Assembly (NCBI RefSeq): GCF_004010155.1
Contig: NZ_RRYH01000027.1
Coordinates: 1 to 64,000, forward strand
Direction of reading: 5' to 3'
Source: Solirhodobacter olei
GTDB lineage: Bacteria > Pseudomonadota > Alphaproteobacteria > Rhodobacterales > Rhodobacteraceae
Length of the DNA stretch: 64,000 nt
In this document: piece after piece, positions 681 through 20,869 of the stretch
How the letters are laid out: each line of letters starts with the position of its first letter
Numbering within the stretch: position 1 is the first letter of the stretch
Translations under genes and position numbers: made by a program
Notes under the pieces: generated by a model
Database searches by the model: none
The model's input: only the letters and a program-made list of their open reading frames with translations
Told to the model about the DNA's origin: nothing

Positions 681-832
681 CTGCCATGCGGCAAATGCAT
701 AACCCGTGCTGACCTATTTTTGCGGCGTTTGACGGGCGTTTGCACAAGCTTTGACCGTTTGGAAAAGCCGCCCCTTGCCCTTGGCGCCGATCGGCGCGAG
801 GTAAGGGGCGAAAACCAAGCGGAGTCTCTCTT

Positions 833-1939
833 ATGTCGGTTACGCGCGAGGCGGTTCTGGACACGCTCAGGCGGATCAGCCTGCCGGGCGGCGGCGATCT
901 CGTCACCAGCGACATGGTACGGGCGCTGACGATCGAGGGCGACCCGGGGGCGCAATCCGTTCGATTCGTCGTCGAGGCGCCCGATCCGGAGGCCGCGCGG
1001 CGGCTGGAGCCGATCGCCAATGCGGCCGAGGAGGTCGTGCGGCGGATGCCGGGGGTGGCGAAGGCCGCGGTGATCCTGACGGCGCATGGCGCGGGGGCGG
1101 CGGGCGCAGGCGCGCCGCAGGCCAAGGCACCGCCGCAGCTCAAGATCGGCGGCCATCCGACGCCGCAGCAGGGCGGGCCACAGAAGGTTTCGGGCGTGGA
1201 CCGCATCATCGCGATCGCCTCGGGCAAGGGTGGCGTGGGCAAGTCCACGGTCGCCTCCAACCTCGCCGTGGCGCTGGCGCGTCAGGGGCGGCGCGTGGGG
1301 CTGCTCGATGCCGATATCTACGGGCCGTCGCAGCCGCGCATGATGGGCGTGACGGCGCGCCCGGACGCGCCGGACGGCAAGACCATCCAGCCGCCTTCGG
1401 CGCATGGCGTGACGATGATGTCGCTGGGCCTGCTGCTGAAGGAGGACCAGGCGGTGATCTGGCGCGGCCCGATGCTGATGGGCGCGCTGCAGCAGCTTCT
1501 GACCCAGGTGAACTGGGGCCGGCTCGACGTGCTGATCATCGACCTGCCGCCGGGCACGGGGGACGTGCAGCTGACCCTCGGCCAGCGGACGCAGGTGACC
1601 GGCGCCATCGTCGTCTCCACCCCGCAGGACGTGGCGCTTCTGGATGCGCGCAAGGCGATCAACATGTTCCAGACGATGAAGGTCCCGGTCCTGGGGCTGA
1701 TCGAGAACATGTCGACCTATATCTGCCCGAACTGCGGGCACGAGGAGCATATCTTCGGCCATGGCGGCGTGGCGGAGGAGGCGAGGAAGCTGGGCGTGCC
1801 GCTTCTGGGCGAGATCCCCCTCAGCCTCGACGTGCGCGTTGCCGGCGACAGCGGCACGCCGATCGCCGCGGGCGAGGGGCCGATCGCCGAGGCCTATGCC
1901 CGGCTCGCCGCCCGGCTGGTCGCCGGCGGCATGGGATAA
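833..1939 (+). CDS. mrp: Mrp/ApbC iron-sulfur cluster carrier ATPase
   Basis: 368 residues. Residues 1-85 form a MIP18/DUF59-type domain, followed by an Ala/Gly/Pro-rich linker (about 86-120). Then comes a ParA/MinD-like P-loop domain with a deviant Walker A, SGKGGVGKSTVASNLA (about 130-145), and switch region DLPPGTGDVQ. A CPNCG motif (CxxC, about residue 299) is the expected cluster ligand. Family members bind and transfer 4Fe-4S clusters to apo-proteins in the cytoplasm. The start has GGAG about 9 nt upstream. The gene is monocistronic: the DUF1127 operon is divergent and a hairpin follows the stop. Confidence 0.93.
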   Translation: MSVTREAVLDTLRRISLPGGGDLVTSDMVRALTIEGDPGAQSVRFVVEAPDPEAARRLEPIANAAEEVVRRMPGVAKAAVILTAHGAGAAGAGAPQAKAPPQLKIGGHPTPQQGGPQKVSGVDRIIAIASGKGGVGKSTVASNLAVALARQGRRVGLLDADIYGPSQPRMMGVTARPDAPDGKTIQPPSAHGVTMMSLGLLLKEDQAVIWRGPMLMGALQQLLTQVNWGRLDVLIIDLPPGTGDVQLTLGQRTQVTGAIVVSTPQDVALLDARKAINMFQTMKVPVLGLIENMSTYICPNCGHEEHIFGHGGVAEEARKLGVPLLGEIPLSLDVRVAGDSGTPIAAGEGPIAEAYARLAARLVAGGMG

Positions 1940-17643: not shown

Positions 17644-18531
17644 GACTCTGTTGCGCATTTCGGCTGTTAGGCGAGGTTCCCCTATCCCCGGTCAGACTTA
17701 TCATACGACCTCAGTGACAAGTATGCCGAGCGCGGTGTAGCCATTCAGGACGGCTATGCGGATCTGGAGTTGAGCGACTTGACGGTCGAACTCCCGCGCC
17801 ATGAGGCGCTGCTCCAACAGTTTCACCCAGTGCATCTTCGTTTCGACGCGGCTTCGGCGGTGATAGCCACTCCAATTTCACCGAAGCGCCCAACCGAGAT
17901 ATTTAGACGCCCGCAAGGCTTTGTTTCGTGCGAACGCCCCGGCGGTGGTTGGCTTCCGTGTTTTGCACTCTTGCGGGGTGGGATGACGGCGGCGGCGCCT
18001 CGATCCGCAATGGCATCCTGGCACTTACGCGTGTCATAGGCGCCATCTGCCGTGACGCTACTGATCTCCTGTTCGGGTGGGATCTGATCGATCAATTCCG
18101 GCAGCATGGGGGCATCGCCGATGCCACTGCTGGTGAACTCGACGGCTCGGATCTCCAGCGTTTGTTCGTCGATCCCGAGGTGGATTTTGCGCCAGACCCG
18201 CCGTTTGGGCCGCCACGCTTACGCGCATTCCACGCGCCTTCGCCCTCGACCTTGATGCCCCTCGCCGGTTTGCTCGCACCGGTGGCGCTTACCGGCTCGA
18301 TGTCGACCAGCCGATGCAGGGGCCTCTTGGAGCCGCGATACGGGATGTTAACGGCCAAGGTCTTCTGACGGCGAGACAGCGTGCTGAAGTCGGGCACCGG
18401 CGCCTGATCGCTTCATTGTAGGCACGCCAGGTCCTGGTCTTGTAGGTAGGGGGTGTGGGTCTGCTCATGCCGTCCATCTATCATGCTGGATTCACGAGAT
18501 GAATCCCCATAGGGGTTTGTGCATCAGAGCC
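17644..18531 (-). mobile_element. IS5-family insertion sequence remnant
   Basis: The left end 17644-17658 (GACTCTGTTGCGCAT) and the inverted right end 18517-18531 (GGCTCTGATGCACAA) agree at 11 of 15 positions. Between them is a minus-strand transposase with frameshifts and an internal loss. Total length 888 bp is shorter than intact elements of this family. No convincing target duplication was found. Confidence 0.75.
17701..18468 (-). pseudogene. IS5-family transposase, degraded
   Basis: Minus-strand pieces in order: MSRPTPPTYKTRTWRAYNEA (start), then directly VPDFSTLSRRQKTLAVNIPY in another frame, GIKVEGEGAWNARK, IPPEQEISSVTADGAYDTRK, AAAVIPPRKSAK, and finally YHRRSRVETKMHWVKLLEQR to the stop at 17701-17703. 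The jump from YNEA to VPDFS skips roughly 60-70 residues of the normal protein. About ten extra codons lie before GIKVEG, and several frame changes exist. It cannot make an active transposase. Confidence 0.85.
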
Positions 18532-19396: not shown

Positions 19397-20461
19397 TCAG
19401 GTCCGGAGCGCCTCGGCGATCTGCACCGCGTTCAGCGCCGCGCCCTTCAGAAGCTGGTCGCCCGCGATGAAAAGCGCGAGCGTGCGGCCCGAGGGATCGG
19501 AGATATCCGTGCGCAGGCGCCCGACGAGCACCTCTTCCGCCCCAGTCGCCTCGGAGGGCATGGGGAAGAGGTTGGCGTCGCGGTCGTCGACCAGCCGAAC
19601 GCCCGGCGCGGCGGACAGAAGCGCGCGAGCGTGCTCCACCTCGACCGGGCTGTCGAACTCCACCGAGGCGGCGATGGCATGGGCGCGCAGGATCGGCACG
19701 CGGATGCAGGTGATGCCGATCGGCAGCGCGGGGGCATCGAAGATGCGGCGGGTCTCGGCCACGACCTTCTCCTCCTCGCCGTTATAGCCGGTCTCGGGGT
19801 TCACCGCGGCGTTGTGGCTGAAGATGTTGAAGGCATAGGGATGGGGCAGCACCTTCGGCGCATAGGCCTCGCCCGCGAGCGCGGCGGCGGTCGAGGCGCG
19901 CAGCTCCTCCATCGCCGCGGCCCCGGCGCCGGAAGCGGCCTGGTAGGTCGCGGCCTGGATCCGGCGGATCGGATGGGCGCGGTTCAGCGCGGCAAGCGCC
20001 ACCGTCAGGATCGCGGCAACGCAGTTCGGGTTGGCGATCACGCCGCGATGGGCGCCGAGCGCTGCGCCGTTGACCTCGGGCACGACCAGCGGCACCTCCG
20101 GATCCATCCGGAAGGCCGAGGAATTGTCGATCACGATGGCCCCGGCGCTGACTGCCTCGGGCGCGTATTGGCGCGAGATCGTAGCCCCGGCGGAGAACAG
20201 CGCCACGTCGATCCCGTCGAAGCTGTAGGGGCCGAGGGGCTTCACCTCCACCTCGCCGCCGCGGAACGGCAGGCGGCGCCCGGCAGAGCGGGGCGAGGCG
20301 AGCAGGCGCAGCTCGCCCACCGGGAAGCCGCGGTCTTCCAGACAGCGGATCAGCTCGATGCCGACGGCACCGGTGGCGCCGACGATGGCGACGGAAAGCG
20401 GACCCATCGGCAGGCGGGCGCCGGCGATGGGGCGGTCGATCAGGTGAAGCGTGTCGTGCAT
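19397..20461 (-). CDS. asd: Aspartate-semialdehyde dehydrogenase
   Basis: 354 residues. NADP-binding SVAIVGATGAVGIELIRCLEDR, active-site cysteine in VIANPNCVAAIL, YQAASGAG, and ITCIRVPILRAHA near residue 250 with the conserved Arg and His. It reduces aspartyl phosphate to aspartate semialdehyde, the branch to diaminopimelate/lysine, threonine and methionine. DAP is the substrate of MurE in this window. From ATG 20461 the protein has an 18-residue extension before MGPLSVAIVG. This start is preferred because AGAGAG lies a few bases upstream, whereas Met19 has no ribosome site. Its leader is unusual (see 20466-20630). Confidence 0.93.
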   Translation of the reverse strand: MHDTLHLIDRPIAGARLPMGPLSVAIVGATGAVGIELIRCLEDRGFPVGELRLLASPRSAGRRLPFRGGEVEVKPLGPYSFDGIDVALFSAGATISRQYAPEAVSAGAIVIDNSSAFRMDPEVPLVVPEVNGAALGAHRGVIANPNCVAAILTVALAALNRAHPIRRIQAATYQAASGAGAAAMEELRASTAAALAGEAYAPKVLPHPYAFNIFSHNAAVNPETGYNGEEEKVVAETRRIFDAPALPIGITCIRVPILRAHAIAASVEFDSPVEVEHARALLSAAPGVRLVDDRDANLFPMPSEATGAEEVLVGRLRTDISDPSGRTLALFIAGDQLLKGAALNAVQIAEALRT

Positions 20462-20465
20462 GGTT

Positions 20466-20492
20466 GCTCTCTCTTGGGTTGGGCGAGAGAGC
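20466..20492 (-). promoter_or_regulatory. Hairpin masking the asd ribosome binding site
   Basis: On the minus strand GCTCTCTC pairs perfectly with GAGAGAGC across an 11-nt loop. The 3' arm contains the purine-rich ribosome site and ends 4 nt before the asd ATG. If formed, it would hide the site. Confidence 0.65.
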
Positions 20493-20510
20493 GGGCACCT
20501 GGCGCGTGGC

Positions 20511-20533
20511 GGCCCCTCCCTCCCGGGGGGGCC
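20511..20533 (-). promoter_or_regulatory. GC-rich hairpin in the asd leader
   Basis: GGCCCC pairs with GGGGCC around a C/G-rich centre that could pair further. It follows the leader peptide stop by about 22 nt. No T-run follows, so it is more likely part of a switching structure than a plain terminator. Confidence 0.5.
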
Positions 20534-20555
20534 TTCTGGTGCTATGCCGTGACCG

Positions 20556-20630
20556 TCACCGCATGCAAGCCAGGGCCCCCGCCGGAGCGGTGGTCTTGGT
20601 CGTGCATTTTTTCGTTACGGTCAGGGTCAT
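20556..20630 (-). CDS. Thr/Lys-rich leader peptide of asd (candidate attenuator)
   Basis: 24 codons on the minus strand beginning MTLTVTKKCTTKTT. Seven Thr and three Lys fall in the first 14 positions and one Met at 23, and it ends at TGA 20556-20558. These are end products of the Asd pathway. Bases 20617-20623 (TGACCGT on the minus strand, inside the peptide frame) are complementary to 20550-20556 (ACGGTCA), so a stalled ribosome could change the fold. No strong Shine-Dalgarno is visible before its ATG, which is the main weakness. Confidence 0.55.
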   Translation of the reverse strand: MTLTVTKKCTTKTTAPAGALACMR

Positions 20631-20869
20631 GCGGGCGGCGTAGCGGCGGCGGGGCGCGGCGTCAACGGAAATTGTGCGGCCCGCCGGGGCATGCGGCAGA
20701 AGGGCCACGCGGGGCGGCGGGTAACACCCGGCGGCGTCCCGCGCGGGGGGCCGCGTACCCGGCGGGGTGGCAAGCGAGGGCGCGCCTCACCCCTAGCGTT
20801 GCGGGGCTGTCTCGGCTAGACTGCCGCCCGAGACCCGGAAAACCGGGCGAGCAGAGGCAGAGCGGTCAG

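Follow-up and report, generated by a model that had tools for sequence, protein, structure and literature searches.

A Thr/Lys-coded leader frame before a second asd gene in Solirhodobacter olei and its relatives, a probable ribosome-mediated attenuator

Why would a bacterium keep two genes for aspartate-semialdehyde dehydrogenase, and is one of them controlled by the short Thr- and Lys-rich frame that precedes it? These questions are raised by a locus of Solirhodobacter olei lying in what we call the window, that is, the whole stretch of 64,000 nucleotides that was analysed. At aspartate semialdehyde, the route to Lys (with cell-wall diaminopimelate) parts from that to Thr, Met and Ile. If a leader on a second copy of this branch-point enzyme read two end products at once, the retention of two asd genes would be explained. 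The leader in front of asd is real and conserved. We read it, with a probability of roughly 0.8, as a ribosome-mediated attenuator that senses charged tRNA-Thr and charged tRNA-Lys and controls a second, inducible asd.

The leader frame, its promoter-like site and its relatives

The gene, the frame and the promoter-like elements are as follows.
19397-20461, minus strand: asd, aspartate-semialdehyde dehydrogenase, 354 aa, second copy (NCBIfam match)
20556-20630, minus strand: leader peptide frame MTLTVTKKCTTKTTAPAGALACMR and stop (24 codons plus TGA)
20589-20627, minus strand: Thr/Lys run, codons 2-14 (7 Thr, 3 Lys), proposed ribosome stall region
20637-20642, minus strand: -10-like hexamer TACGCC, 6 nt ahead of the leader ATG
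20660-20665, minus strand: -35-like hexamer TTGACG, with a 17-nt spacer to the -10-like hexamer

The first-pass annotation had described a 24-codon frame before asd with seven Thr and three Lys codons among its first 14, and exactly this frame was confirmed at 20630-20556 on the minus strand, its stop codon lying 94 nt from the asd ATG. With ten Thr plus Lys in 14 codons it leads the 1298 stop-free 14-codon ATG frames on both strands of the window, where the runner-up has six. In block-shuffled copies of the window, none of 21614 frames had nine or more Thr plus Lys and one had eight. Similarly, none of 5998 frames had eight or more in 75 asd loci (L008-L082) that are non-alphaproteobacterial where a group is named. 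The asd family match begins at residue 22-23 (window 20461-20400, minus strand), and because the frame begins about 21 codons ahead of this match, the ATG at codon 19 may be the true start of asd. The ATG farther upstream (20461) has the Shine-Dalgarno-like sequence AGAGAGAG. Elsewhere in the window, frames at 17823-18397 on the minus strand resemble, by eye, a broken IS-element transposase.

The canonical asd copy of the same genome (G000:C12:70149-71138) is 43% identical to the window asd and has no Thr/Lys frame upstream. A canonical copy was also present in all of the 32 leader-bearing genomes taken in by this check, which are a part of those found, with 66-100% identity to the canonical copy of the window genome. 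When 40 canonical upstream regions were sampled from 153 genomes with a match, 38 had no frame with more than five Thr plus Lys in 14 codons. Two canonical asd loci (L207 and L226) carry a different leader, whose Thr/Lys run closes the frame at its 3' end; in L226 a hairpin and a T-run follow. These leaders may be of the type of SEP5, a Sinorhizobium frame discussed below. MQPG-like frames recurring before canonical asd were set aside as candidates, since by eye they resemble the tail of a leuB-like gene lying upstream.

The type of asd found in the window is scattered, occurring in 18 of 394 family genomes (E up to 1e-100) and in 28 of 385 class genomes (E up to 1e-90). Within the genus, five of seven genomes have it with readable upstream DNA, and the leader is present in all five (for example, MTRIATTKRTTKTTASAGVVGRAR); one genus locus (L092) is on a split contig. 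The leader was found in 17 of 17 evaluable loci of the 18 in the family and in 19 of 27 evaluable loci of the 28 in the class, counting as present two leaders with weak runs (L121, 4 of 10; L131, 5 of 10). For these counts, L103 and L130 were not evaluable upstream, their asd match being incomplete at the start, and L098 was dropped as identical to L003. Absence of the leader from the other eight of the 27 class loci counts against the attenuator reading. Going by record titles, members extend to Reyranella and Bradyrhizobium MAGs. Loss of the frame among relatives would have spoken against a leader; instead, the Thr/Lys frame has been kept.

Composition of the frame follows the same pattern across relatives. 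Among 44 asd leaders (50 minus six near-duplicates), Thr accounts for 34% and Lys for 15% of codons 2-18, compared with 1.9% and 0.3% after codon 18, and the four Thr codons and the two Lys codons all occur in the run. The synonymous share of changed codon pairs was 29% in the run versus 8% after it, where the base make-up of the run alone would give 22%; this was determined on alignment A2, which holds 37 of the 44 leaders, seven close relatives having been left out.

A promoter-like site accompanies the frame. The best sigma-70-like site ends 6-10 nt ahead of the leader ATG in 42 of 44 leaders, although the start codons of four (L094, L111, L137 and L138) were set partly from promoter spacing. 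Its mean score was 8.4 versus 6.2 in shuffles, and the site beat 95 of 100 shuffles in 28 of the 44; a stricter consensus promoter scan of the window called none here. Matches to AGGAGG reached at most three of six ahead of the leader in 40 of 44 cases, versus at least four ahead of asd in 39 of 44, with asd starts picked with weight on the Shine-Dalgarno match. The promoter spacing suggests a transcript that probably begins at the leader AUG or right beside it, giving a leaderless or nearly leaderless start.

RNA segments and the predicted switch

Nine elements of the RNA, all read on the minus strand, are needed to describe the switch.
20607-20630, minus strand: segment 0, 5' end of the leader frame, which partners the leader-stop region (TGACCGT, 20623-20617)
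20587-20594, minus strand: segment 1, ACCACCGC, in the last Thr codons
20574-20585, minus strand: segment 2, CCGGCGGGGGCC, which pairs with segment 1 or segment 3
20550-20556, minus strand: segment 2b, ACGGTCA, which lies at the leader stop and partners segment 0
20522-20533, minus strand: segment 3, GGCCCCCCCGGG
20511-20518, minus strand: segment 4, GAGGGGCC
20533-20511, minus strand: 3:4 terminator-like hairpin without U-tract (0 T in the next 8 nt)
20485-20492, minus strand: segment 5, GCTCTCTC, anti-Shine-Dalgarno arm, complementary to segment 4 too
20466-20474, minus strand: segment 6, AGAGAGAGC with the asd Shine-Dalgarno, which pairs with segment 5 in the predicted fold

A complementarity between a segment within the frame and one near its stop had been noted earlier. 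It is real (TGACCGT, 20623-20617, with ACGGTCA, 20556-20550), and the corresponding pairing 0:2b is the most species-specific of the 28 tested, own exceeding foreign in 31 of 34 (permutation p=0.0002). In this cross-species duplex test, a species' own pair was compared with pairs built from other species, using 34 thinned sequences and non-overlapping windows with some segments as short as 3 nt. Species specificity was also seen for 1:2 (p=0.0026), 2:3 (p=0.0082), 3:4 (p=0.0002), 4:5 (p=0.0006) and 5:6 (p=0.0002). Among the other pairs, 20 of 22 were not species-specific, the unpredicted exceptions being 2:6 (p=0.0078) and 2b:5 (p=0.021). With wider windows, the test agreed in Rhodobacteraceae and, apart from 1:2 (p=0.074), also in non-Rhodobacteraceae; in this version the unpredicted 2:5 reached p=0.04 in all leaders and 0.026 in non-Rhodobacteraceae.

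An alignment of 20 Rhodobacteraceae speaks for 1:2 plus 3:4: both sides had changed in four base pairs, all of them in 3:4, and 2 of 500 shuffles did as well. For 2:3, covariation in the alignment fell short of significance (35 to 93 of 500 shuffles). None of 200 dinucleotide shuffles folds as well as the 175-nt stretch 20630-20456 (z -3.60). The relatives thus support a conserved Thr/Lys-coded leader that has alternative predicted RNA folds.

We predict that the leader works in the following way. Transcription would start at or a few bases from the leader AUG. When charged tRNA-Thr and tRNA-Lys are sufficient, the ribosome would clear the Thr/Lys run, and once it is past the run, 0:2b, 1:2, 3:4 and the Shine-Dalgarno hairpin 5:6 would form, keeping asd low. 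When either tRNA is short, the ribosome would stall in the run and cover segments 0 and 1, so that segment 2 would be free to pair with segment 3 as an antiterminator. Formation of 2:3 would leave segment 4 free for segment 5, and asd would be expressed. The switch is therefore best described as what is probably a relay, in which 0:2b and 1:2 compete with 2:3, and then 3:4 with 4:5.

Folding with the ribosome-covered bases masked was used to follow this switch. In 23 of 37 leaders, 2:3 is preferred to 3:4 at one or more stall positions, and the last codon favouring 2:3 lies 0-6 codons ahead of the last Thr/Lys; with the ribosome at the stop codon, 3:4 was formed in 30 of the 31 leaders listed. 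In the other 14 of the 37, folding computed at equilibrium retains 3:4 whichever codon the ribosome stalls at. The switch of the window leader is weak: 2:3 narrowly exceeds 3:4 (about 0.7 versus 0.6) only with the A-site at codons 7-9, which are well ahead of the last Thr. The earlier suggestion that stalling could switch the RNA fold is supported as far as the alternative folds are concerned, whereas the one pairing that it named is probably insufficient as a switch on its own. The computed basis of the attenuator is the conserved coding run, the promoter placement, the species-specific pairings and the switch in these 23 leaders; from it we infer leader translation, stalling, the starvation response and the output stage.

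Possible outputs of the relay

How the relay acts on asd may differ between groups. In leaders with a U-tract after 3:4, the OFF output would probably be intrinsic termination. Five or more T among the eight bases after 3:4 were found in 9 of 19 non-Rhodobacteraceae versus 2 of 18 Rhodobacteraceae; the Bradyrhizobium-like leaders L005 and L006 have seven, and the window leader has none. A terminator scan of the window likewise called no terminator at the 3:4 hairpin. Two features of attenuators are nevertheless present, namely a short frame rich in end-product codons before the gene and mutually exclusive helices, of which the switch is weak in the window. Because the U-tract is absent, we do not assign the window leader to the transcriptional attenuators, though it would work like them. 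For the same reason, the output in the window and in most Rhodobacteraceae may be termination by Rho or at an atypical terminator, or else control of initiation. In leaders without a U-tract, the working of attenuation in Rhodobacteraceae can be tested directly.

Control of initiation would take the form of a translational relay. Without a U-tract, free segment 4 would capture segment 5 and unmask the asd Shine-Dalgarno, while formation of 3:4 would leave 5:6 to mask it. A Shine-Dalgarno held in a hairpin, here 5:6, is a feature of erm-type translational attenuators, and the species specificity of both this helix (p=0.0002) and 4:5 (p=0.0006), together with the rarity of the U-tract in Rhodobacteraceae, argues for such an output. 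Furthermore, in 34 of 37 leaders at least three bases of segment 5 are common to 4:5 and 5:6, and the duplex energy is lower for 4:5 in all 24 leaders listed. However, the computed accessibility of the Shine-Dalgarno was 0.26 in the stalled state versus 0.23 in the finished state, it changed by more than 0.1 in only 4 of 37 leaders, and shortened forms of 4:5 and 5:6 coexist in folds. U-tract and hairpin strength were also not anticorrelated (Spearman p=0.17), which leaves the idea that loss of the U-tract was traded for a Shine-Dalgarno hairpin unsupported. On balance we consider a translational output in these leaders somewhat unlikely.

An output through Rho is, in our estimation, neither more nor less probable than the translational one. 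A C-rich stretch before asd would load Rho in the OFF state and would be masked by 4:5 in the ON state. The C-richness of segment 5 in the genus, the missing U-tract and the conserved 4:5 are consistent with this, but the argument is one from composition, which is weak evidence.

Related leaders, proposed sensed residues and known systems

Related leaders were sought with a covariance model (R2) built from asd leaders only, with a hand-set 1:2 plus 3:4 structure. Another model (R1) was sequence-only and was not used, because an RNAalifold consensus on 37 leaders gave no pairs. The class search with R2 returned 73 matches in 56 of 385 genomes (E up to 0.01), and in the window genome the window leader was the only match at E below 0.1. 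Fifty of the 73 were inspected or already known: 25 precede asd (L184 and L189 assigned by eye), 13 thrS, one dapA and one an acetyltransferase-like gene (by eye). Ten inspected matches (L176, L178, L181-L183, L185, L186 and L190-L192) had no Thr/Lys leader, and the 23 matches outside the inspected set have E values of 3.9e-4 to 0.009. A sample of the phylum gave matches in 19 of 329 genomes (E up to 1e-4), second matches being inspected in part. Six matching genomes lie outside the class, with the leader before thrS (L233, L240 and L241), before isochorismatase-domain genes (L237 and L248) or before a ThrA-like gene (L249).

Several of these matches precede other genes. In L188 (G344:C128), dapA (NCBIfam; ORF 697-1620, plus strand) follows a similar leader and a terminator-like hairpin. 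This is a single case, and the leader run holds just two Lys (MRRLMNVAAKAKAPPPG...). In L163 (G307:C45), a Met-containing frame (MPLMHPFATSMLMLVIQTHSGG...) with the same terminator-like hairpin precedes the gene that by eye is acetyltransferase-like. The leaders of L237 and L248 are Thr-rich (MIFIEMFLTRTTTTTADGG... and MNQPRIASTTTTTTARGGS) and precede isochorismatase-domain hydrolases (Pfam), while in L249 a Thr-rich frame precedes a separate homoserine dehydrogenase that matches the C-terminal half of ThrA.

Leaders before thrS were found at L144, L153, L160, L161, L165-L167, L173-L175, L177, L180, L187, L233, L240 and L241, with Thr-coded leaders recognised by eye only at L243 and L250. The thrS linked to the leader is mostly a short form, and TGS and the second additional domain are missing from the five examined with Pfam (L144, L160, L165, L166 and L174); L187 is the exception, its thrS being full length. 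Eleven of 13 thrS-leader genomes also hold a thrS with a longer frame (645-728 aa). One genome (G542) has two further partial thrS matches, and in another (G302) the leader is on the only thrS copy found.

The two kinds of leader differ in Lys. Lys occurs in 44 of 44 asd leaders (mean 2.50) versus 5 of 11 thrS leaders (mean 0.55; p=3.7e-7), and Thr is equal in both; the 11 thrS leaders are those left after L180 was dropped from 12, the L153 leader not being included. Since Lys differs between asd and thrS leaders at equal Thr, the residues of the leader follow the downstream gene. Since R2 was trained on Thr/Lys leaders, the search itself favours Thr in its matches; the low Lys of thrS leaders runs against this bias. 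Thr leaders before a short, spare thrS are a natural control for the tracking of the controlled gene by leader codons.

These observations bear on what is sensed. The first-pass annotation had proposed Thr, Lys and Met, and Thr and Lys are supported. The window leader does have a Met at codon 23, but a Met near the end is not conserved as a signal, Met making up 1.9% of residues after codon 18 in the 44 asd leaders. As a sensed residue it was rejected, with a mean of 0.91 in asd versus 0.73 in thrS leaders (no difference). Several Met lie inside the run of some Rhodobacteraceae leaders (L101, L132, L134 and L135). Overall, Met cannot be told apart from background in asd leaders.

It could be argued that the attenuator senses Thr alone and that the Lys codons merely aid codon context, as Thr exceeds Lys in asd leaders (mean 5.75 versus 2.50) and thrS leaders mostly carry Thr alone. 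However, context alone is insufficient to explain why Lys is found in every asd leader and is scarce in thrS leaders, and we regard sensing of Thr alone as improbable. That the frame is untranslated and conserved for RNA structure only is hardly credible: its last Thr codons do overlap segment 1 and the synonymous excess comes partly from base make-up (22% expected versus 29%), but the run reaches beyond segment 1 on its 5' side, stays Thr/Lys while drawing on every Thr and Lys codon, and has a composition that tracks the downstream gene. We therefore retain the reading of a translated leader that senses both charged tRNAs.

A wider proposal, which we put forward tentatively and at slightly less than even odds, is that one leader-attenuator family runs a 'spare enzyme' regulon in Alphaproteobacteria and some other Pseudomonadota. 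Its members would be a second asd (Thr and Lys codons), a short second thrS (Thr alone) and, in one genome, dapA (few Lys). The asd and thrS copies, usually found beside a housekeeping copy, would be induced by a drop in charged tRNA-Thr or tRNA-Lys. The relay of Rhodobacteraceae would have lost its U-tract and would act via the asd Shine-Dalgarno or Rho.

The first-pass annotation knew of no asd attenuator of this kind in Rhodobacteraceae. In a full-text literature search, which took in few subscription papers, we likewise recognised nothing on a Rhodobacteraceae asd leader or on such thrS leader peptides. In Sinorhizobium meliloti, though, SEP5 has already been suggested as a leader peptide. 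This small ORF, which has six Thr and three Lys codons and precedes a gene given as 'aspartate dehydrogenase', was shown to be translated by Ribo-seq and a tagged fusion, was termed a possible leader peptide and was reported as Sinorhizobium-only in conservation (PMC10117765). Compared by its description there, SEP5 has its Thr/Lys cluster near the 3' end of the ORF (PMC10117765), whereas that of the window leader is in the 5' half. The trpL attenuator of S. meliloti, described in the same paper with a leaderless mRNA starting at the AUG (PMC10117765), is likewise an alphaproteobacterial leader peptide of an amino-acid biosynthesis gene; it differs in reading Trp, and the AUG start reported for it is a prediction for the asd leader. 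In a survey of premature terminators, asd and thrS are absent from the main text (PMC2965389).

No Rfam family, the lysine riboswitch included, reached the gathering score in the window or in 15 related loci. The enterobacterial thrL (Rfam Thr_leader, presumably RF00506) is a Thr-rich leader peptide with mutually exclusive hairpins, and in E. coli it codes for Thr plus Ile. The asd leader resembles it in its Thr-rich peptide, exclusive hairpins and aspartate-family target; unlike thrL, it has Thr plus Lys, a second asd as its target and an implied leaderless start. A scan of 20300-20760 of the window (E up to 10) gave three Rfam matches, all far below threshold and to families other than Thr_leader. 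In Firmicutes, T-box RNAs exert starvation control over genes such as thrZ, a spare threonyl-tRNA synthetase, by binding uncharged tRNA. Like the T-box, the leaders described here are predicted to respond to starvation and to act on a spare threonyl-tRNA synthetase or an amino-acid gene, but they would do so through a leader peptide instead of the binding of uncharged tRNA, and the window has no Rfam family at gathering. Attenuation through ribosomes stalled on Thr and Lys codons is our best reading, with a mode of action like that of the thr and trp leaders.
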